DNA of 64,000 nt from Bosea sp. ANAM02 (GTDB taxonomy: Bacteria > Pseudomonadota > Alphaproteobacteria > Rhizobiales > Beijerinckiaceae). The position numbers were made by a program, and so were the translations under genes. Of this stretch, positions 5,694-15,459 are shown in pieces (the stretch's first letter is position 1; each line of letters opens with the position of its first letter). The notes under the pieces are model-generated. The model ran no database searches. It was not told the DNA's origin and saw nothing but the letters and a program-made list of their open reading frames with translations. The stretch spans positions 1,020,001 to 1,084,000 of the forward strand of contig NZ_AP022848.1 of assembly GCF_011764485.1 (NCBI RefSeq). Reading direction: 5' to 3'.

Positions 5694-8315
5694 TTGGCCG
5701 AAAAGCTGCAAGCCTATCGCGCCAAGCGCGATTTCAGGAAGACCAAGGAGCCGAGCGACGCGATCGCGGTGGCTCCTTCAAACCGGCTGCGCTTCGTCAT
5801 CCAGAAGCATGACGCAACGCGGCTGCATTACGACCTGCGCCTGGAGCTGGATGGCGTCTTCAAATCCTGGGCCGTGACCAGGGGGCCGTCGCTCGACCCC
5901 GGCGACAAGCGCCTCGCCGTCGAGGTCGAAGATCACCCGCTGGCCTATGGCGATTTCGAGGGGACGATCCCGAAGGGGCAATATGGCGGTGGCACCGTCC
6001 AGCTCTGGGATCGTGGCTACTGGGAGGCGGAGGGCAAGCTCAGTCCGCAGCGACAACTCGAAAAGGGCGACCTCAAGTTCACGCTCGATGGCAAGCGGTT
6101 GCAGGGCAGCTTCGTCTTGGTGCGCATGAAGCATGACCGCGACGGCGGCAAGCGCACTAACTGGCTCCTGATCAAGCATCGCGACGACCATGCGGTGGAT
6201 TCCGATGGCGATGCGGTCCTGAAAGCCGATGCCTCGGTGGCCTCGGGTCGGACGATGAAGGCGATCGCGGCCGGGCGCGGCCGATCGCCCAAGCCTTTTC
6301 TGATGGCCGGGCAAGCCGTCGATGCCGATGCCGTCTGGGATAGCAAGCAGGGTCTGGCGGCGCAGGCGCGCGCAGGTAAGCCGGCACAACCCAAGGCTGC
6401 AGGTCGAGCCCCGAAAGCGCGCCGCGCTACAGCTGCCGACCTGCCGAATTTCATCGCGCCTCAGCTCTGCCGGAGCGTCGAGCGGCCGCCGGCGGGCAGC
6501 GGCTGGGTCCATGAGATCAAATTCGACGGCTATCGCATCCAGGCGCGTGTTGCTGCCGGCAAGGTCACATTGAAGACTCGCAAGGGGCTCGACTGGACGA
6601 GGAGGTTCGGGGCCGTGGCCAAGGCGTTCAAGGGCCTGCCGGACTGCGTCATCGACGGCGAGATCGTCGCGCTCGACGATCATGGCGCGCCGGATTTCGC
6701 CGCTTTGCAGGCGGCGCTATCCGAGGAGCAGACCGAAAACCTCGTCTTCTTCGCCTTCGATTTGCTGTTCCTCGACGGTGAGGACTGGCGCGAGAGACCT
6801 CTTCTCGCCCGCAAGCCAAGGCTGGAGGCACTGCTGGACGACGCGGCCGATGGCGCTACGCTGCGCTATGTCGAGCATTTCGAGACCGGCGGCGATGCCG
6901 TGTTGAAATCCGCGTGCCGCTTGTCTCTGGAGGGCATCGTCTCAAAGCGAGGCGATGCGCCCTACACTTCGGGTCGCAACGATAGCTGGACGAAAGCCAA
7001 ATGCCGCGCCGGCCATGAGGTCGTCATCGGCGGCTGGGCGACCACGGCCGGTAAATTCCGCTCGCTGCTCGTCGGCGTCCATCGCGGTCCGCATTTCATC
7101 TATATCGGCCGGGTCGGCACGGGCTATGGCGCGGCCACGGTCGAGAAGCTGCTGCCGCACCTGAAAGAACGCGAGGCCAAGACCTCCCCGTTCACCGGCA
7201 AGGGCGCGCCCCGGCGAGCTTCGGGGGTGCATTGGGTCGAGCCCGTCCTCGTCGCCGAGATCGAATTTGCGGGCTGGACCGGCGACGGCATGGTTCGGCA
7301 GGCCGCCTTCAAAGGCTTGCGGGAGGACAAGCCGGCGGCGGAGGTCGAGACCGATTTGCCTGCGCCACCGGAGAAAGCAGAACCGCCCAAGCCCGCGCCG
7401 GGACGTGGCGGACGGATCGATATCCTGGGCGTGCCCCTGTCCAAGCCCGACAAGCCGCTCTGGCCCGATGCCGAGGATGGCAAGCCCGTCACGAAGCTCG
7501 ACGTCGCCCGCTATTTCGAAGCCGTCGGGCCCTGGCTGCTACCGCATATCCAGGGCCGGCCCTGTTCGCTATTGCGGGCACCCGACGGGATCGAGGGCGA
7601 GGTCTTCTTCCAGCGCCATGCCGGCCTCGGCACTTCCAGCCTGTTCGAGCTGGTGAAGATTTCCGGTGACAGGAAATCCTATCTCCAGATCGACCGGATC
7701 GAGGCGCTGATCGCAACCGCCCAGATCGGCGGAATCGAGCTACATCCCTGGAATTGCCGGCCGGGCGAGCCGGAGGTTCCGGGGCGGTTGGTCTTCGACC
7801 TCGATCCGGGACCGGCCGTTCCTTTCGACGCCGTGATCGCGGCAGCCAAGACGATGAAGGAGCGGCTTGATGCTCTGGGCCTCGTCAGCTTCTGCAAGAC
7901 CACCGGCGGCAAGGGACTGCATGTCGTGACCCCGCTGGCGAAGCCTCGCCGCGGCGGCCCGGACTGGCCGGCAGCTAAGGACTTCGCGCGCCGTCTCTGT
8001 GCGGATATCGCCGCGGACGAGCCGGAACGCTATGTCGTCAACATGGCCAAGCGCCTTCGCAAAGGGCGCATATTCCTCGACTATCTCCGCAACGACCGCA
8101 TGGCGACGGCTGTTGCGCCCTTGTCGCCCCGCGCCCGACCGGGAGCGCACGCCTCGATGCCGCTGACCTGGCCGCAGGTGAAATCTGGGCTCGATCCCGC
8201 CCGCTACACCATCCGCACGGTTCCGAAGCTGCTAGGGGGAAACAAGGCCTGGGCGGATTATGAGGAAGCCGAGCGGCCTTTGGCGGATGCGATCAAAAAG
8301 CTCGGCCGCTCCTGA
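5694..8315 (+). CDS. ligD: ATP-dependent DNA ligase LigD (PE-ligase-polymerase)
   Basis: Multidomain repair enzyme of bacterial non-homologous end joining, 873 residues. Order of domains: 3'-phosphoesterase (about 30-170, with [15 protein letters not shown]), adenylating ligase (about 255-560, EIKFDGYR with catalytic Lys276) and the primase-like polymerase (about 575-870, with the metal-binding DLDPG at 702-706). This is the Pseudomonas-type order, not the mycobacterial one. The start is TTG at 5694, with GAGGG seven bases upstream; no in-frame ATG fits the conserved N terminus better. Two ku genes follow directly, so the NHEJ set is complete. Confidence 0.95.
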
Positions 8316-8382
8316 TTGACGCCCCGCTGTGTCGGAACGGATCGGCAGCCGATGCGTTTCGCGTCCGATCGGAGAACCGTCC

Positions 8383-9168
8383 ATGGCCCAGCATACATTT
8401 TGGAAAGGCTATCTCAAACTGTCGCTCGTGACCTGTCCGGTCGCGATGATGCCGGCGCGCTCCGAGAGCCAGAAAGTCCGCTTTCACACGCTCAACCGCA
8501 AGACAGGGCACCGCATCCAAAGCCGCTTCGTCGACGCCGTCACCGGCAAGCCGGTCGCCGATGCCGACGAGGTCAAAGGCTATCCCAAGGGGGATGACGA
8601 CTACGTCATGCTCGAGGATGACGAGCTCGACGCCGTCGCGCTGGAGAGCACGCGCACAATCGATATCGAGCTGTTCGCGCCGCGCTCCTCCGTTGGCTGG
8701 ATCTGGTACGACACGCCGCATTACCTCGTGCCGGACGGCAAGATCGGCGACGAAGCCTTCTCGGTTATCCGCGAGGCGATGAAGGCGACCAGGACGGTCG
8801 GTATCTCTCGCGTTGTCCTCTACCGGCGTGAGCGTGCCGTCCTGTTGGAGCCGCGCGACAGGGGCATTGTGTTATGGACCTTGCGCTATGGCGACGAAGT
8901 CCGCGACGAGAAGGATTATTTCGCTGATATCAAGAAGGCGAAACCCGAGCCCGACATGCGCGCGCTCATGGAGAAGCTGATCACCTCGCGCACGAAGGAC
9001 TGGTCGCCGGAGCTTGCGCAGGATCCTGTCCAGGACGAACTGCTCGATCTCATCAAGGCCAAGCAGAAAGGCCGCAAGCCGGCCCGGAAAACCAAACATG
9101 CCGCCAACGAGGGCAATGTCATCAGCATCATGGATGCCCTCAAGCGCAGCCTGGAACCGCGGAAATGA
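8383..9168 (+). CDS. ku: Non-homologous end-joining protein Ku (first copy)
   Basis: DNA-end-binding Ku protein, 261 residues, starting MAQHTFWKGYLKLSLVTCPV, the typical Ku N terminus. GGAG eight bases before the ATG at 8383 selects this start over an upstream in-frame ATG at 8329. The Ku core (HTLNRKTG, VSGRVL-like region) runs to about residue 240, followed by a short basic tail. It binds broken ends as a dimer and recruits LigD, encoded just upstream on the same strand. Its TGA abuts exactly the stop of the convergent second ku gene. Confidence 0.94.
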   Translation: MAQHTFWKGYLKLSLVTCPVAMMPARSESQKVRFHTLNRKTGHRIQSRFVDAVTGKPVADADEVKGYPKGDDDYVMLEDDELDAVALESTRTIDIELFAPRSSVGWIWYDTPHYLVPDGKIGDEAFSVIREAMKATRTVGISRVVLYRRERAVLLEPRDRGIVLWTLRYGDEVRDEKDYFADIKKAKPEPDMRALMEKLITSRTKDWSPELAQDPVQDELLDLIKAKQKGRKPARKTKHAANEGNVISIMDALKRSLEPRK

Positions 9169-10038
9169 TCAGCTCGCCTTGCGCTGTGGCTCGGTCTCTG
9201 CGGCCGTCTTGCGGGCGGATTTTCGCTTCTTGGCGGGTTTGTCAGCCGATTTGCCATCGCCTTGACCGCTCTTGGCGCTCTGTCTGAGAGCATCGAGAAG
9301 ATTGACCACCTTCGCCGGCTCCGGCCGCTTCACCGGCTTGATCTTGCGTCCTTCGATCTTCGCCTTGACCAGTTCCGCCAGCGCAGTCTCGTAGCGGTCG
9401 TCGAAAGCCTTGGGGTCGAAGCGGCCAGCTTTGGTGCGGATGATATGCTCGGCGAGTTCCAGCATCTCGCCTTCGATCTTTAACTTCGGGATGTCGTCGA
9501 AGGCGCTTTCCGCCGGACGGACCTCGTAATCGAAATTGAGAGTCGTCGCGATCATTCCGGCATCATGTGGCCGGATCAGAATCGAGCGCATCCGCCGGAA
9601 GATAACGGTGCGCGCCAGGGCCGCGCTCTCCCGGCTCGCCATGACGTCGCGAATCAGGGTGTAGGCCTCGGTCGCGATCGGCGTGCTCGGCGTCACGTAA
9701 TAGGGTCGGTCGAAGAACAGGTCGTCGATCTCGTCGCAGGGCAGGAAGGTCGCGACGTCGAGGACCTTGTCGCTTTCTGGGGTTGCCTCGGCGATTTCAT
9801 CCGGCTCGATCACGATGTAGTCGCCATCGCCGCGATCGTAGCCCTTGACCTGATCATCCTTCTCGACCGGCTTCCCTGTGACCTCATCGATGAACTGGCG
9901 ATGCACTCGGTTGCCGGTCTTGCGATTCAGAGTGTGGAAGGAGATGCGCTCGCCGGTTGAGGCGGCAGTGTAAAGTGCCACCGGGCAGATGACTTCGGCG
10001 ACCTTGAGGACGCCTTTCCAAATCGCGCGCGGCGCCAT
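9169..10038 (-). CDS. ku: Non-homologous end-joining protein Ku (second copy)
   Basis: Second Ku, 289 residues, beginning MAPRAIWKGVLKVAEVICPV and carrying the HTLNRKTGNRVHRQF stretch. It ends with a long Lys/Arg/Ala-rich extension (last 45 residues, e.g. KKRKSARK), which the first copy lacks; in Ku proteins such tails bind DNA. It differs clearly in sequence from the first copy, so the two could form different homodimers or a heterodimer, as reported for rhizobial Ku sets. Convergent with the first ku, with no base between the stop codons (TGATCA). Confidence 0.94.
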   Translation of the reverse strand: MAPRAIWKGVLKVAEVICPVALYTAASTGERISFHTLNRKTGNRVHRQFIDEVTGKPVEKDDQVKGYDRGDGDYIVIEPDEIAEATPESDKVLDVATFLPCDEIDDLFFDRPYYVTPSTPIATEAYTLIRDVMASRESAALARTVIFRRMRSILIRPHDAGMIATTLNFDYEVRPAESAFDDIPKLKIEGEMLELAEHIIRTKAGRFDPKAFDDRYETALAELVKAKIEGRKIKPVKRPEPAKVVNLLDALRQSAKSGQGDGKSADKPAKKRKSARKTAAETEPQRKAS

Positions 10039-10347
10039 GTCGTCAGTCTCGCATCAGAGCGGGAAGTGCGGATGAAAAACCGTTCGTCTCAAGCGAAAGT
10101 TCCCGTGTCGAGCCGATCAACGGCTTATTTGCATCCGATCCTTGGCTTGTTATGCCTCTGCGAATTGGATTGCCAGGAACGCAATGGTATCCGAGCCGGG
10201 TAAGGCCAAGCTCAGGCGGCGGACGCCGATGTCATCGCATCGTCCGAAAGCGGGCCTTCAACGTCCTGGGTGGCGGCCGACCTCGCCATCGATCCAGCAA
10301 GCTATCTCGATTTCGCGGCCGACGAGATTGGTAAGCTCTTCTCAGGC
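10039..10347. other. Intergenic region with no clear gene
   Basis: Contains the promoter region of the second ku gene and about 200 bases of non-coding sequence leading into the IS remnant. Short open frames are present in several registers, one reading DPASYLDFAADEIGKLF, but none shows a start with a ribosome site or a family I recognise. Confidence 0.5.
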
Positions 10348-10730
10348 TCCGGCTTGGCGATCCGCATCGACCGAAGGCTGAAGGCGATCGATGTCATCGA
10401 CGTGCTCTCGGACCTCTTCATCCTGCGCGGTGTGCCGGAGCATATTCGTTCAGACAAAGGCCCCAAGTTCGTCGCCAAGGCCGTGCAGGGTTGGATCAGC
10501 GCGGTTGGCGCGAGACCGCCTACATCGCACCCGGCAGCCCCTGGGAGAACGGCTTCATCGAGTCGTTCAACGCCCGGCTCCGGGACGAGTTTCTCGATGG
10601 CGAGATCTTCTACACCCTCGCCGAGGCGAAGATCGCCGTCGAAAGTGGGCGGCGGCACTTCAACACCGTGCGCCCACACGGCTCGCTCGGTTACAAGCCT
10701 CCCGCGCCGGAGGTTCTCATCCCTCCATGA
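10348..10730 (+). pseudogene. IS3-family transposase remnant (orfB), frameshifted
   Basis: C-terminal half of an IS3-family (IS2/IS407-like) OrfB transposase. The first frame reads LAIRIDRRLKAIDVIDVLSD and continues FILRGVPEHIRSDKGPKFVA to about 10513; one missing base near GGCGCGAGACCG shifts the rest to the next frame, TAYIAPGSPWENGFIESFNA to LGYKPPAPEVLIPP. The second Asp (SDKG) and the Glu (FIESF) of the DDE triad are present, but the first Asp and the whole N-terminal half are missing. Conserved Asn/Glu after the second Asp have become Lys. The element's right end probably lies near 10836, where a GGACC...GGATCA stretch resembles the termini of such elements. Confidence 0.85.
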
Positions 10731-11208
10731 CCGCGCGGGCGGCTGCGCAACCCGGGCCTGCTACGCCGCCCGCGCTGGCGCCCAGGCCAACCGTACATTA
10801 ACAATCAAGCCGGACCTCTCGACGGGGCGGATCAGATCCCGGATCGGTGTCGTTCTGCGGCTTTTCCGAAATGAGGGTTCACTCTCGCGAAGTGAAGCTG
10901 TCTCGCAGTGACGATCCTGGCTTGCCCCCCGGAACCCGGCTGTCGAAAAATGCCCGGACGGCGCAGAGTAAGGTTCGACACATCCGGGATTGATCAGGTC
11001 GATGCGTCTGCAAGCAAGTCGTCGGTTTCGAGTGAATATCGGCCGAGAAGTTTATATTAGTTCGATTTATTATTCCGTTTTGAAGAATAAAGCGACGCGA
11101 CTTAACGCTGTTCCCACAGGCATTCCTTGGTTGGATTGCGCTACCGCCTGAATGGCATCAAGATAGCGAGGTTTTTAGTCACTTTCGATTTCGGCTGGAG
11201 GGGAAGGA
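10731..11208. promoter_or_regulatory. Intergenic region with AT-rich island upstream of adenylation operon
   Basis: 478 bases without a gene. The first 100 are probably the right end of the IS remnant. From about 11035 to 11105 the sequence turns unusually AT-rich for this window (GTTTATATTAGTTCG, then TTTATTATTCCG), which marks a likely promoter or foreign-DNA segment for the operon starting at 11209. I cannot assign exact -35/-10 boxes. Confidence 0.45.
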
Positions 11209-12819
11209 GTGGGGGATTGCTTCAATCTGGCGCGTGGGTTGGCGCGACAGGCGAGGGAATGTCCTGACGCATTGGCTCTCCAGGCTGGCGGGATTGCGCT
11301 GACCTATGGCGCGCTTGCGCGACAGGTGACGGAGCTTGCGGGATTGCTCGCGGGGCATCGTCGGTCGCGGCGCATCGGCATTCTCGGCACGCGCAGCAGC
11401 GAGGCCTATATCGGCATTCTCGCTGCCTGCTGGGCTGGCAGCGCCTATGTCCCGCTCAATCTCAAATGGCCGGCCGCGCGCCTGATCGCCCTGTTCGGCC
11501 AGTTGCAGCTCGATGCCCTCATCGCCGACGAGAACGGCACCGGCCTCCTGACGCCGGAGGTTCTCGCCAACGCTCCCGATCTGGTCGTGATCCCGGCCGG
11601 GCGCACGCTCGCGCCGGCCCGGCCCGATCAATCCGTGCTTCCGCGCGGCAGCTTTACGGTTCCGCCACTCGACGAGCCGGTGCCCGTCGCGCCCGGCGAC
11701 GCCGGCTACATCATCTTCACCTCCGGCACGACCGGGCTGCCGAAGGGCGTGATGATCTCGGCCGGTTCGCTGGCTCATTATCTCGATCAGAGCGAGCCAT
11801 GGACGCGCTATGGCCCCGCCGACCGGATCGGCGAGGCCTGCGACGTCACCTTCGATCTCTCGGTCCATAATCTGTTTCTCTGCCTGCGGGCCTGCGCCTC
11901 GCTGCATGTGATGTCGCAGCTCGAAATGCTGGCTCCGGCGCGCTTCATCCGCGGCCATGAGCTTACGGCCTGGATGTCGGTGCCGACGGTGATCGCGCTG
12001 ATGCGGCAGAGCGGGGCGCTGAAGCCGGGCATCTTCCCGAGCCTCAGGCTCTCGATCTTCTGCGGCGAGCCGCTGCCGGTCTCGGCGGCGCAGGCCTGGG
12101 CGGCGGCCACGCCCAACGGCGTCGTCGAGAACATCTACGGGCCGACCGAGGCGACGGTGATCGGCCTGCGCCAGCCCTTGACGGAGCCGCCGGTCGTGAC
12201 CGAAGGGCGCGATATCCTCGCGATCGGCCGGCCCTATCCCACCATGAAGGTGGCCATTCTCGATCCGCGGCAGCAGCCGGTCGCGGCGGGCGAAGCCGGC
12301 GAGATCGCGCTCGCGGGTCCGCAGCTCGGCATCGGCTATTTCGGCCTGCCGGAGCTGACGGCCGATCGCTTCCGCATGATCCGCGGCGAGCGCTGGTATT
12401 TGACCGGCGATCTCGGGCGCATGGACGCGCATGGGGTCTTCCATCATCTCGGCCGGATCGACAATCAGGTGAAGCTCAAGGGCAACCGGGTCGAGCTGGA
12501 GGAGATCGACACGCATCTGCGCCGGGCCGCGGGCACCGACCTCGTCGCGACCGTGGCCTGGCCGGTCGCCCATGGCTCGGCCGAAGGGCTCGTCGCCTTC
12601 GTCAGCGGCGGCCATGGCGATGTCGAGGCGATCAGGCGGGATCTCGTGCGGAAGCTGCCGCGCTATCTCGTCCCCGGCCGGATCGTCACCGGACCGGACC
12701 TGCCCCGCAACATCAACGGCAAGATCGACCGTGGCGCGCTGGCGCACCGGCTCGATCAGGATGCCCGGTCCGTTTCCGTCGAGGCCGAGGTCATCCGCCC
12801 GGCCGACCCTGTTTCCTGA
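11209..12819 (+). CDS. Amino-acid adenylation enzyme (ANL superfamily, DltA-like)
   Basis: Stand-alone adenylation enzyme of 536 residues predicted to activate an amino acid as AMP ester and load it on a carrier protein. Visible core motifs: A3 FTSGTTGLPKG (170-180), A4 FDLSV with Asp216 at the place that binds the alpha-amino group in amino-acid-activating domains, A5 YGPTEAT, A7 YLTGDLG, A8 GRIDNQVKLKGNRVELEEI and A10 NGKIDR with Lys505. Start GTG, preceded by GGAGG at seven bases. The next gene is a carrier protein 14 bases downstream, then a GNAT-like transferase and a flippase: the logic of a dlt system without DltB/DltD. Substrate unknown. Confidence 0.88.
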   Translation: MGDCFNLARGLARQARECPDALALQAGGIALTYGALARQVTELAGLLAGHRRSRRIGILGTRSSEAYIGILAACWAGSAYVPLNLKWPAARLIALFGQLQLDALIADENGTGLLTPEVLANAPDLVVIPAGRTLAPARPDQSVLPRGSFTVPPLDEPVPVAPGDAGYIIFTSGTTGLPKGVMISAGSLAHYLDQSEPWTRYGPADRIGEACDVTFDLSVHNLFLCLRACASLHVMSQLEMLAPARFIRGHELTAWMSVPTVIALMRQSGALKPGIFPSLRLSIFCGEPLPVSAAQAWAAATPNGVVENIYGPTEATVIGLRQPLTEPPVVTEGRDILAIGRPYPTMKVAILDPRQQPVAAGEAGEIALAGPQLGIGYFGLPELTADRFRMIRGERWYLTGDLGRMDAHGVFHHLGRIDNQVKLKGNRVELEEIDTHLRRAAGTDLVATVAWPVAHGSAEGLVAFVSGGHGDVEAIRRDLVRKLPRYLVPGRIVTGPDLPRNINGKIDRGALAHRLDQDARSVSVEAEVIRPADPVS

Positions 12820-12833
12820 CGAAAGGAGGATAT

Positions 12834-13082
12834 GTGAACGTCGATCCGCAAGACCTGCGCCGAACCGTCGTCGCATTGCTCGCCGAGGCCGGACATGCCG
12901 GCCCGATCTGCGAGAGCGAGTCGCTGTTCCTGAGCGGGCGGCTCGATTCCCTTGCCGCTGCCGAAATCCTGGCGCTGCTCGAACGCGATTACGGGCTCGA
13001 TCTGGCCGATGCCAATTTCGACATCACCGGGATCGACACGCTCGCTCGGCTCGAGGCGCTGGCGCGTCAGCAGCCCGCCTGA
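12834..13082 (+). CDS. Acyl/peptidyl carrier protein
   Basis: 82-residue phosphopantetheine carrier protein with the attachment serine at position 39 in GRLDSLAAAEIL. Start GTG after a strong AAGGAGG site. It follows the adenylation gene by 14 bases, and its stop overlaps the ATG of the next gene (TGATG), so the three are translationally coupled. The likely role is to receive the amino acid activated by the preceding enzyme and hand it to the GNAT-like protein. It needs a phosphopantetheinyl transferase, which is not encoded in the window. Confidence 0.88.
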   Translation: MNVDPQDLRRTVVALLAEAGHAGPICESESLFLSGRLDSLAAAEILALLERDYGLDLADANFDITGIDTLARLEALARQQPA

Positions 13083-13993
13083 TGCGGGACACGAGCGCCG
13101 ACGCCCTCCCGGAGGTCTTGCCCGAGGCTGGAGCGACAGCCGCTGCGCGCCCGCGCTTCCTGCGCCCGATCGGGTCGTCCCGGCGCGACGAGGCCGTGAC
13201 GCTGCTGATGGAGGGCTTTCCGGCGACCAGCCGCGCCTTCTGGGAGCGGGGGTTGGAGCGGCAGGTCGCACTGCAGGGCGGTGATTTCGGCTATTGCCTG
13301 GAGGCGGGCGGCCAGGTCGTCGGCATTATGCTGGCCTTGCGCAGCACGCGCAGCCGACCCGACGGGACGCTCTATCCCGTGGTCAACCTGTCGAGCTGGT
13401 ACATCCAGCCGGCGCATCGCTGGCGCGCCGTTCCGATGCTGCGCGCCATCGTCGAGGAGAGCGATGGGCTCGTCACCGATCTCACCGCCTCCGAGTCGAT
13501 CTACCGGATGAATGCCGCTGTCGGCCTGTCGCCCTGGAGCAATGGCATGATTCTCGCCGGCGTCCTGCCCTGGGCCGCGCTGCCGGCCCGGCGCGGCTCC
13601 AGCGTGCTGCGCCTCGCTCAGGCGACCGCAGTGCTCGGCCCGGCTGAGGCCGCGATGCTGGAATGGCATGAGCGGGACGGGCTGATCGCCGGCGTGCTTT
13701 GCGAGGAAACGAGCACCTGCCCGCTGCTCTTCCGCCCGATCCGGCGCAAGGGGGTGCGCTTCGCTCAGTTGATCTTCGCCGGCAGCCGCAAGGCCGTGAT
13801 CCGCAACCTGCCGGCAGTGATGCGCTTTCTCGCCGGCCGCGGCATCCTGTTCCTGTCGATCGACGCGTATCGCGAGGATTGCCCGCGGGGCGCCTTCTTC
13901 CGACCCGGACGGCAGCGCTTCTGGCGTGGCGTGGTCGACCGAGACCGGCTCGACTACGCCTATTCCGAACTCGTCCTGTTCGGCGTCTCCTAG
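13082..13993 (+). CDS. GNAT-like acyl/aminoacyl transferase
   Basis: 303-residue soluble protein whose first half has a GNAT-like layout: a FLRPIGSSRRDEAVTLL opening, a strand-rich CLEAGGQVVGIMLALRS segment and WYIQPAHRWRAVPMLRAIVE in place of the CoA-binding motif. The usual Q/RxxGxG/A signature is degenerate, so the donor may be a carrier-bound group rather than CoA (inference). The second half (after about residue 170) has no motif I know. The ATG overlaps the carrier-protein stop by one base. Position between carrier and flippase suggests it moves the activated residue onto a lipid-linked or surface molecule. Confidence 0.65.
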   Translation: MRDTSADALPEVLPEAGATAAARPRFLRPIGSSRRDEAVTLLMEGFPATSRAFWERGLERQVALQGGDFGYCLEAGGQVVGIMLALRSTRSRPDGTLYPVVNLSSWYIQPAHRWRAVPMLRAIVEESDGLVTDLTASESIYRMNAAVGLSPWSNGMILAGVLPWAALPARRGSSVLRLAQATAVLGPAEAAMLEWHERDGLIAGVLCEETSTCPLLFRPIRRKGVRFAQLIFAGSRKAVIRNLPAVMRFLAGRGILFLSIDAYREDCPRGAFFRPGRQRFWRGVVDRDRLDYAYSELVLFGVS

Positions 13994-14019
13994 GCGGGAC
14001 GGCAGGCAGTCACCCGGTG

Positions 14020-15459
14020 ATGCTCCTTCGCAAGACGCTGCTCTACATGCCGGCCGGGACGCTCGGCCCGCTGATCCAGCTCGCCACCATCGTGGTGCTG
14101 ACCCATTGGCTGGCGCCGGTCGAGCTCGGCGTCTACGCATTGGTGGTGGCGCTGCAGGATCTCGCGCAGATCGCGACGCTGTCCTGGTGGTCGCAATATG
14201 GGCTGCGCTATCTCGACGAGACCGATCCGGCCTTGCGGGCGCGGCAGGATCGCACCGAGATCGGCGTGATCGCCCTGGCCGGGATCGCTCAGGCACTGCT
14301 CGTCGCGGGCTTCACCATCGTGCTGGGGGATGGCCCGGCGGAGCCCGGCCTTATCGGCAGCGCGGCGCTCGCCGGCGTCATGCGCGGAACCGTCGTGCAT
14401 GCGAGCGTCCGTGCTCGGGCGCAGCAGCAGATCGGGCTGCATGCCTTCGCGCAGATGGCGGCCCCCTGCCTGAGCCTCGGCTTGAGCCTGGCCGGCTTCG
14501 CCCTGTTCGGGCCCGGCCTGACGGTGGCCTTCCTCGCCATGGCGCTCGGCCATTGTCTCGTCGCCCTGCCCATGGCGCTGAAGCTCGATTATCGCCAGGT
14601 CCGTGGCGGTATCGACCATGCCACGTTGCGGAGAGGCTTCCGCTACGGCGTCTTCACGGCGCTGGGCGCCGGCCTTGCCTGGGGCTCGATGCAGAGCATG
14701 CGCTTCGTCACCGATCTGGTGTTCGGCGCGGCGGCGGTCGGCCTGATCCATGTCGGCTGGGGCATCGGCCAGCGCATCGCCACCCAGCTCTCCGTGCTGG
14801 CGACGACGGCTTTGTTCCCGATGGCGGCCAGCCGCGCCCGGACCGAAGGCATCGCCGCGGGCGTGAGCCAGTTGCTGGTCGCGGGACCGATCCTGCTCGC
14901 CGTGCTGGCGCCCGCGACGGTCGGGCTCGCTTTTGTCGCCGGGCCGGCCGCCCGCCTCCTGACCGCGCCGGCCTATCAGGAGATGACGGCGGCGATCCTG
15001 CCCGTGGCGATGCTGGCAGGGGGCGTGCGGGCCTTCCGCAATCACTATCTCGACGAAATCCTGCAGCTGACCGACCGGTCGCGCCTGATGACGGCGCTGG
15101 ACGGGCTCGAGGCCGTGACCACGATGCTGCTTTGCGGCGCCGGCGCATTGCTCTACGGCATCGCCGGCGCCCTGATCGGATGCCTGGTCGCCGCCATCCT
15201 GGCGACGGCATTGGCCGTCGTCCTGGTCGCGCGGCAGCATGGCCCCTTGCTGACGGCGCGTGCCATCTTCGCGACGGGGACGGCCTGCCTGGCGATGGCT
15301 GCCGTTCTCGCAGCGCTGCCGAGGCCAGAAGGGCTCGTCGGATTGACCGTCACCTGCTGTCTCGGCGGGACCGTCTATCTCGCGATCTACGCCTTGTTCG
15401 AGCACCGCGCGCTCAGGCAGCTGGCGCGCGGCTCGTTCACGCGGAAGCATGGCGGCTAG
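14020..15459 (+). CDS. Polysaccharide-type flippase (MOP superfamily, Wzx-like)
   Basis: 479-residue integral membrane protein with about 12-14 hydrophobic segments along its whole length, beginning LLYMPAGTLGPLIQLATIVV, and the domain spacing of oligosaccharide exporters of the MOP superfamily (conserved GPL...ELGVYALV opening). Predicted to move a lipid-linked molecule across the inner membrane. Last gene of the operon with adenylation enzyme, carrier and GNAT-like protein; 26 bases separate it from the preceding gene. No glycosyltransferase or polymerase is adjacent, so the cargo is unclear. A GTG directly before the ATG could also be the start. Confidence 0.85.
   Translation: MLLRKTLLYMPAGTLGPLIQLATIVVLTHWLAPVELGVYALVVALQDLAQIATLSWWSQYGLRYLDETDPALRARQDRTEIGVIALAGIAQALLVAGFTIVLGDGPAEPGLIGSAALAGVMRGTVVHASVRARAQQQIGLHAFAQMAAPCLSLGLSLAGFALFGPGLTVAFLAMALGHCLVALPMALKLDYRQVRGGIDHATLRRGFRYGVFTALGAGLAWGSMQSMRFVTDLVFGAAAVGLIHVGWGIGQRIATQLSVLATTALFPMAASRARTEGIAAGVSQLLVAGPILLAVLAPATVGLAFVAGPAARLLTAPAYQEMTAAILPVAMLAGGVRAFRNHYLDEILQLTDRSRLMTALDGLEAVTTMLLCGAGALLYGIAGALIGCLVAAILATALAVVLVARQHGPLLTARAIFATGTACLAMAAVLAALPRPEGLVGLTVTCCLGGTVYLAIYALFEHRALRQLARGSFTRKHGG

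Follow-up and report, generated by a model that had tools for sequence, protein, structure and literature searches.

A Soluble GNAT-Fold Protein Alternates with a DltB-Like MBOAT beside a DltA-Type Adenylation Enzyme and Its Carrier in Bosea and Related Bacteria

Beside one kind of stand-alone adenylation enzyme and its small carrier protein, a DltB-like membrane MBOAT and a GNAT-fold protein exchange with each other, and either may have replaced the other. The genome of Bosea sp. ANAM02 carries the GNAT form of the set together with a flippase gene. We lean toward the hypothesis that the set carries out an aminoacylation of the dlt kind, with a cytoplasmic GNAT filling the role of the MBOAT, and that the acceptor would therefore be modified inside the cell and, in Bosea, flipped out; we hold this to be somewhat better than an even bet.

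The Gene Set and Its Distribution

Four genes are encoded on one strand of the window, that is, the whole stretch of 64 kb that was analyzed:

11209..12819, + strand: stand-alone amino-acid adenylation enzyme of the DltA/NRPS-A type (hereafter A), 536 aa, GTG start
12834..13082, + strand: carrier protein, 82 aa, phosphopantetheine serine in SGRLDSL
13082..13993, + strand: tandem-GNAT-fold protein without the glycine CoA loop, 303 aa; proposed aminoacyltransferase with the carrier as donor
14020..15459, + strand: MOP/Wzx-type flippase, HfsF-like, 479 aa

The genes overlap or nearly touch, as originally noted: 14 bases separate A from the carrier gene, the ATG of the GNAT gene overlaps the carrier stop codon by one base, and 26 bases lie between the GNAT and flippase genes. 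The sequence AGGAGG sits 4 bases ahead of the GTG start of the carrier gene. At Rfam gathering scores no non-coding RNA was matched in the 64-kb window. A defense system was rejected, with zero PADLOC matches for all four proteins at E 0.01.

The set recurs in three other genomes of the genus and is for this reason more than a chance assembly. Gene order is identical in G161 (A 89%, GNAT 84%, and flippase 85% identity) and in G160, and G204 has two divergent pairs, A-carrier and GNAT-flippase. Thus, the expectation that relatives conserve the four-gene order is borne out in two of these three genomes but not in the rearranged G204, nor in five genomes outside Bosea in which the flippase is not adjacent. 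The G204 set lies near a gene of the asparagine-synthase type, a second ligase with a carrier, and a BBP2_2 barrel.

A is found in 10 of 67 same-genus genomes. At E 1e-110, a sample of 397 genomes of the order gave two with A, G000 being one of them; the sample was drawn evenly over a larger group and scored for three candidates per genome, so that some may be missed. The GNAT is found in 4 of 61 genomes of the genus and 16 of 150 of the order (G000 included), the weakest find being G092 (E 6e-4, two internal stops), which the GNAT profile did not recover in L035. Six of the 67 same-genus genomes (G210–G215) lie outside the GNAT search, and no A or flippase matches occur in them.

Exchange of MBOAT and GNAT beside the Adenylation Enzyme

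Among the matches listed, 31 distinct loci encode a close relative of A; the MBOAT is beside it in 21 and the GNAT in 9, with neither in one locus and both in none. In 2 of the 21 MBOAT-type loci, again among the matches listed, the MBOAT lies on the strand opposite A. The sample comprises 24 loci whose A is at least 45% identical and 10 same-genus loci, minus the three common to both sets (G168=L046, G209=L047, and G153=L045); the 24 come from 80 matches listed, the 56 more distant of which were left out, and are no census. On a tree of A built without the duplicates L143, L145, and L146, the MBOAT/GNAT label switches at least two times on well-supported branches, and a single change suffices in 0% of 200 bootstrap trees.

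An MBOAT profile, for which 5 of the 10 same-genus genomes searched and the L050 genome served as positive controls, gave zero matches genome-wide in the four GNAT-type same-genus genomes and in five other GNAT-type genomes. The predicted absence of DltB therefore holds for a DltB-like MBOAT of the type found in the relatives. That the relatives' protein is an MBOAT is supported by its predicted model (pLDDT 86.6), for which PDB ranks 1–15 are all MBOAT proteins: the entries at ranks 2 and 3 name DltB in their titles, the one at rank 1 (6bug, whose title says no more than "a membrane protein") is one that we take to be DltB, and ranks 4–15 are HHAT, PORCN, DGAT, and ACAT/SOAT. The likeness to DltB is modest (TM 0.48–0.56, with two hits at E <0.001), and the match to the DltB HMM is faint (19.3 and 26.8 bits, cut-off 375). 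In an alignment of 16 rows, read for a catalytic histidine at its presumed position, His328 does not vary, but a histidine follows the GN motif in only 12.

The Flippase and the Proposed Destination of the Product

The predicted MOP-superfamily flippase is best described as HfsF-like, with all scores below cut-offs. It matches the NCBIfam model of HfsF, the holdfast polysaccharide flippase, almost end to end (residues 1–466) at 92.2 bits, far under the curated cut-off of 700, and Polysacc_synt_3 at 22.0 bits, just under the cut-off of 23. A full-length copy (at least 386 bits) is encoded in 4 of the 67 same-genus genomes, the same four in which the GNAT was found among the 61 searched for it, and an Aquamicrobium homolog adjoins glycosyltransferases. 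Outside Bosea, the flippase is not adjacent to A-carrier-GNAT in five genomes and is undetected genome-wide in four of these five. It is therefore not a fixed fourth part, and we reject the notion of a fixed four-gene unit.

These distributions bear on the strongest alternative, which we regard as unlikely but worth serious attention: the MOP protein would be a drug/metabolite-type transporter exporting a free aminoacyl conjugate (a dipeptide, N-aminoacyl amine, or amino acid) that A, the carrier, and the GNAT make. The occurrence of A-carrier-GNAT elsewhere without a flippase alongside fits such a pathway, as does the patchiness of A within the genus, which is typical of accessory metabolites. 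Furthermore, no glycosyltransferase, polymerase, or lipid-carrier gene was recognized around the set here, in G161, or in G160, in stretches viewed partly by eye, which also weighs against our favored hypothesis. Against it, the transporter resembles polysaccharide flippases, with three same-genus copies scoring 92, 73, and 80 bits against HfsF over nearly their full length, all under 700, and the same A/carrier pair otherwise accompanies a DltB-like MBOAT, known relatives of which work on surface polymers.

Adenylation Enzyme and Carrier

A matches the Pfam AMP-binding family (PF00501) at 220.7 bits and, among NCBIfam models, scores 295.4 bits against TIGR01733 (cut-off 317.4). The DltA models TIGR01734 and PRK04813 give 237.9 bits (cut-off 559.85) and 241.9 bits (cut-off 476), respectively, and no gene in the whole genome reaches the TIGR01734 cut-off. 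Pfam gives only AMP-binding for A and finds a condensation domain in none of the four proteins, which is not the composition of an NRPS module. Asp216 in FDLSV and Lys505 in NGKIDR are at the places originally given for them and do not vary across an alignment of 35 rows that includes this A; we take Asp216 to be the alpha-amino-binding position of amino-acid adenylation domains. The invariance of Asp216 and the best-matching curated models, which are amino-acid adenylation and DltA even if below cut-off, support the assignment of A as amino-acid rather than fatty-acid type, and activation of a fatty acid is judged unlikely on the same evidence.

This evidence also weighs against the proposal that the cargo of A is a hydroxy, fatty, or other acid, with which the GNAT would N-acylate an amino sugar ahead of its export. 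Sugars of O-antigen and flagellin are known to be N-acylated in an acyl-carrier-dependent way, and the GNAT family also adjoins a ligase_PEP_1-like ligase (L021 and three similar loci). Yet an aminoacyl-carrier ligase is present in seven loci with relatives of the GNAT, and, with Asp216 and the curated models pointing the same way, we consider a non-amino-acid cargo improbable.

The pocket code of A is DLHMICIVIK, at GrsA positions 235, 236, 239, 278, 299, 301, 322, 330, 331, and 517, which were placed by motif and are presumed to correspond. Among the matches listed, eight of the nine GNAT-type enzymes carry this code, whereas only 3 of the 21 MBOAT-type enzymes do, all of them among the five same-genus MBOAT-type ones. 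A single I-to-V change distinguishes one further GNAT-type and seven MBOAT-type enzymes, and 11 of the 21 MBOAT-type enzymes differ at two to five positions, again among the matches listed; the L021–L024 enzymes, with unalignable columns, yielded no code. A retains the cysteine found in the DltA-type FCGE motif. D-alanine as the substrate is a guess, because A falls far under the DltA cut-offs and has only 5 of 10 pocket positions in common with a Photorhabdus DltA-like enzyme.

The 82-residue protein is indeed a carrier with a DSL serine, as predicted: it matches PP-binding (PF00550) at 28.2 bits and the DltC model at 15.4 bits (cut-off 68). The motif LDS(L/V) is present in the carriers of all nine GNAT-type loci among the matches listed; it reads LDSL in L144, and L066 has LQSV.

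The GNAT Family and Its Charging Modules

The third protein has no Pfam match above cut-off and no NCBIfam match, and its predicted model (pLDDT 90.7) matches tandem GNATs. Similar folds include Eis, glucosamine N-acetyltransferase, and N-myristoyltransferase, which use acetyl-CoA or acyl-CoA; HfsK and FemX are not among the PDB matches listed, and we attach no weight to this. When 22 distinct members of the family are aligned, 21 lack the CoA pyrophosphate loop, R/Q-x-x-G-x-G/A, and the other (L043) has part of it. Residues N102, H196, D291, and E296 are conserved. The protein encoded here reads RWRAVP at the expected place, in agreement with the degenerate CoA motif first described for it. 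Bosea GNATs and those of the other five GNAT-type genomes form two separate groups.

Of the 24 loci in which a GNAT of this family lies, 20 also have an identified carrier-charging module: A in nine, an aminoacyl-carrier ligase in seven, and a ligase_PEP_1-type ligase with a decarboxylase in four. No charging module was identified in the remaining loci, L031–L034, and L031 and L032 have weak matches to the A profile (30–56 bits). That the GNAT is an ordinary acetyl-CoA sugar N-acetyltransferase, with A and the carrier serving something else, is very improbable: tandem GNATs of like predicted fold do take acetyl-CoA or acyl-CoA, but the CoA glycine loop is lost almost throughout the family, most of its loci hold a charging module, the carrier and GNAT genes overlap, and GNAT and MBOAT are mutually exclusive in the 31 loci among the matches listed. 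The original prediction had the GNAT take the amino acid from the carrier. This is plausible, given the GNAT's alternation with a DltB-like MBOAT next to the same A/carrier pair and its missing CoA glycine loop, and gene context and the lost motif suggest that it depends on the carrier.

Comparison with Known Systems

The closest known system is dlt (DltA, DltB, DltC, and DltD), which likewise has a stand-alone adenylation enzyme and a small carrier in a single operon; relatives of the present pair accompany a DltB-like MBOAT, and the FCGE cysteine is shared. Unlike dlt, the set has an A that scores far below the DltA cut-offs and a GNAT and flippase where dlt has DltB, and teichoic acids are not expected in this Gram-negative bacterium. 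The statement that no described pathway has these parts is thus softened: the set is kin to dlt in its adenylation enzyme, carrier, and transferase rather than unrelated, and its novelty is judged from databases.

Two further systems share the GNAT. In seven amino acid:[carrier protein] ligase loci of 18–20 kb, a class II seryl-tRNA-synthetase-like ligase (PRK07080) is accompanied by a same-family GNAT; unlike the present set, these loci have another charging-enzyme fold, an acyl-CoA dehydrogenase-like gene (seven of seven), and no match to this flippase. The exosortase-A-associated ligase/decarboxylase module (TIGR03098 and TIGR03099) is represented by four loci with a same-family GNAT, carrier, ligase, and decarboxylase; in L021, the only one on which the two models were run, both genes score slightly under the curated cut-offs. 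A ligase of this type also lies near the set in G204. The differences are the ligase family, the PLP decarboxylase, and the unmatched flippase.

Proposed Mechanism and Significance

We infer the amino acid, its transfer, the acceptor, and the export as follows. A would convert a small amino acid, which may be D-alanine, into the aminoacyl-adenylate and then load it on the carrier's phosphopantetheine arm. The protein that takes the amino acid off the carrier would, in many relatives, be a DltB-like membrane MBOAT; here, the soluble tandem-GNAT protein would act in its place, with the carrier-bound aminoacyl thioester rather than an acyl-CoA as donor, and the acceptor that it aminoacylates would face the cytoplasm. 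The neighboring Wzx-type flippase of Bosea would carry the product, for which a lipid-linked sugar or short glycan is the likeliest candidate, over the inner membrane to be built into a surface polymer. Two features of the GNAT family count against this scheme: it also serves the ligase_PEP_1-type module, whose cargo need not be an amino acid, and four of its 24 loci have no identified charging module.

A bolder reading, which we advance only tentatively, is that the GNAT family comprises dedicated carrier-protein-dependent aminoacyltransferases serving at least three unrelated charging modules (the DltA-like A, the class II synthetase-like aminoacyl-carrier ligase, and the ligase_PEP_1-type ligase with its decarboxylase), and that in Bosea it makes the dlt-like step a cytoplasmic one, in which a lipid-linked sugar receives its amino acid within the cell before it is flipped outward, a topology opposite to that of DltB.

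If our proposal is true, dlt-like decoration with amino acids is not bound to a membrane MBOAT, and a soluble transferase and a flippase can couple to a like enzyme and carrier. Rhizobial aminoacyl-carrier ligases, whose end use is to our knowledge unsettled, would gain an assayable candidate for their acceptor enzyme. The MBOAT-type and GNAT-type genomes of one genus offer an internal comparison for tracing the acceptor.

The operon and its surroundings

The original prediction proposed a four-gene set of an amino-acid adenylation enzyme (A), a carrier, a GNAT-like protein and a flippase, and this set is indeed present as closely spaced genes, all on the plus strand, in a contig of 4.96 Mb out of a genome total of 5.65 Mb.

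Features of the operon and its flanks
5694-10038: LigD and two Ku genes, upstream of the operon
8329-9168 (+) and 9169-10038 (-): the two Ku genes, abutting end to end
10270-10911: short integrase-core (rve) match, upstream; 29.4 bits, just under the cut-off
11209-12819 (+): A
12834-13082 (+): carrier
13082-13993 (+): GNAT-like protein, predicted tandem GNAT fold
14020-15459 (+): flippase, HfsF-like
Downstream: weak SpoIIE match, 14.7 bits, below the cut-off
Downstream: ABC transporter solute-binding protein

In a protein search the GNAT's nearest named matches come from Bosea (84 and 86% identity), which marks the genome as Bosea-like. Close to the operon is a double-Ku end-joining locus. A second transposase-like stretch (10491-10730, by eye) lies in another frame than the rve match, and the two are probably the remnant of a broken insertion sequence.

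Substrate pocket of the adenylation enzyme

A matches Pfam AMP-binding (220.7 bits). Its best NCBIfam model is amino acid adenylation (295.4 bits, below the cut-off of 317.4), and the DltA models score 237.9 and 241.9 bits, below cut-offs of 559.85 and 476. Asp216 and Lys505, residues first picked out by inspection, prove invariant across a 35-row alignment that includes the window enzyme. The ten pocket positions, located by way of known motifs, read DLHMICIVIK. A DltA-like enzyme of Photorhabdus (DltA model 349.5 bits, below the cut-off), whose gene lies directly 3' of one resembling an MBOAT by eye, has the pocket DLYVLCTVAK. It agrees with the window A at five of ten positions, among them the Asp and the FCGE-motif Cys. 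In DltA, this Cys favours D-alanine. Based on this kinship of pocket codes, the proposed reading of the pocket yields a small amino acid as the likely substrate, with D-alanine as a possible one.

Partners of A in relatives

When named genomes were scanned with the alignment of A, at least 80 loci matched; among the matches listed, 24 have an A of at least 45% identity. Beside A stands a membrane protein, X, in 18 of these 24, a GNAT of this family in five, neither in one and both in none. Within the genus, 10 of 67 genomes encode A at E 1e-120, four with GNAT and flippase, five with X and one with neither. Three records are common to both sets, and the resulting 31 distinct loci (among the matches listed plus the same genus), a sample of relatives rather than a census, comprise nine GNAT-type, 21 X-type and one with neither. 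X lies on the strand opposite to A in two of the 21 (L142 and L144). Searched genome-wide, the X profile matches in all five X-type genomes of the genus, in none of its four GNAT-type genomes or the one with neither, and in none of five GNAT-type genomes outside it (one positive control matched).

Two protein searches returned GNATs and A enzymes with equal longest contigs (42225, 18207, 7982, 36775, 539182, 104207, 5068 and 5175 bases), so these proteins probably share contigs, a co-occurrence judged from longest-contig bases only.

One genome (L045/L145) has an A of 67-68% identity, perhaps a decaying copy, and no carrier, GNAT or MBOAT match in that locus. Four pairs of divergent GNATs (search rows P0015/P0025, P0017/P0030, P0021/P0031 and P0024/P0028) have equal longest contigs within each pair and are probably two copies on one contig. 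The same-genus genome G160 carries a second, distant family GNAT (L043, G160:C15) in a locus that encodes an aminoacyl-carrier ligase; a gene for a thiamine-pyrophosphate enzyme adjoins it.

X is a predicted DltB-like MBOAT

X is a membrane protein of ~490 residues that matches TIGR04091 faintly (19.3 and 26.8 bits, cut-off 375). A structure model built from 16 sequences (pLDDT 86.6) retrieved 6bug (titled 'a membrane protein'; a DltB structure) at rank 1 of a PDB search, two DltB chains at ranks 2 and 3, and HHAT, PORCN, DGAT1 and ACAT/SOAT at ranks 4-15. The match to DltB is modest (TM 0.48-0.56; two matches with E <0.001). In the 16-row alignment His328 and Asn402 are invariant, and a histidine follows the GN motif in 12 rows. 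By this modest structural match, X is a predicted DltB-like MBOAT. A carrier match occurs in 20 of 21 X-type loci (21 of 21 in the printed rows, the frame in L058 being doubtful). Because A, the MBOAT-fold protein and the carrier (20/21) occur together, these loci constitute a dlt-like core.

In Bosea sp. AAP35 (L046:10984-16359) A, carrier and MBOAT lie close to Pel-type polysaccharide genes (PelG, 283 bits; a DUF3492/GT4 glycosyltransferase; GH114; Poly_export), a hint of an amino-sugar acceptor. Acetyltransf_6 (GNAT domain) genes occur near A-MBOAT-carrier in L050:7804-9863, where the gene that follows matches PIG-L deacetylase at a borderline score (28.1 bits, cut-off 28.2), and in L147:10484-11653.

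Flippase and glycan context

The flippase matches the HfsF model over nearly its full length, far below the cut-off. Copies of at least 386 bits occur in four of 67 same-genus genomes, the same four that encode the GNAT (61 of 67 searched for it); five further matches all score at most 34 bits. Of the five GNAT-type genomes from other genera, that of Aquamicrobium alone encodes a homologue (123 bits); it lies in a separate stretch from the A set, with two glycosyltransferase genes nearby. In the same-genus genome G204, A-carrier and GNAT-flippase form two divergent pairs, neighboured by asparagine-synthase type and NAD-synthase type genes, a BBP2_2 barrel and a second ligase (TIGR03098, 459 bits, cut-off 592) with a carrier. 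The G204 and Aquamicrobium contexts point to surface glycan work. In the window, G161 and G160, no glycosyltransferase was recognised beside the set, as judged partly by eye.

Exchange of transferases

On a tree of 35 A sequences (9 GNAT-type, 21 MBOAT-type, 5 others) the partner changes three times. Well-supported branches force at least two of these changes, and a single change suffices in none of the 200 bootstrap trees. Bosea GNAT-type A groups with Bosea MBOAT-type A, apart from the GNAT-type A of Rhizobium, Mesorhizobium, Aquamicrobium and Pseudochrobactrum; the GNATs of Bosea and of these four genera likewise form separate well-supported groups on their own tree. The pocket code is DLHMICIVIK in eight of nine GNAT-type enzymes, the ninth ending VK, and in 3 of 21 MBOAT-type enzymes (3/5 within the genus); seven of the 21 differ solely by the VK ending, and the other 11 at two to five positions (e.g., DLHLFCIIAK), with the Cys always kept. 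Given the trees and the near-identical codes, it looks as though, within Bosea at least, one seemingly common activated amino acid is passed to two unrelated kinds of transferase.

Gene content, its conservation, the exchange and the predicted folds are directly supported. We infer every chemical step of the following scheme, which as a whole is the most likely one. A would form an aminoacyl-AMP and then load the carrier, the GNAT would transfer the amino acid to a cytoplasmic acceptor amine or hydroxyl, and the flippase would take the lipid-linked product outwards. The dlt system hands over its amino acid at or through the membrane, and in the MBOAT-type relatives the amino acid would instead be passed on in this way.
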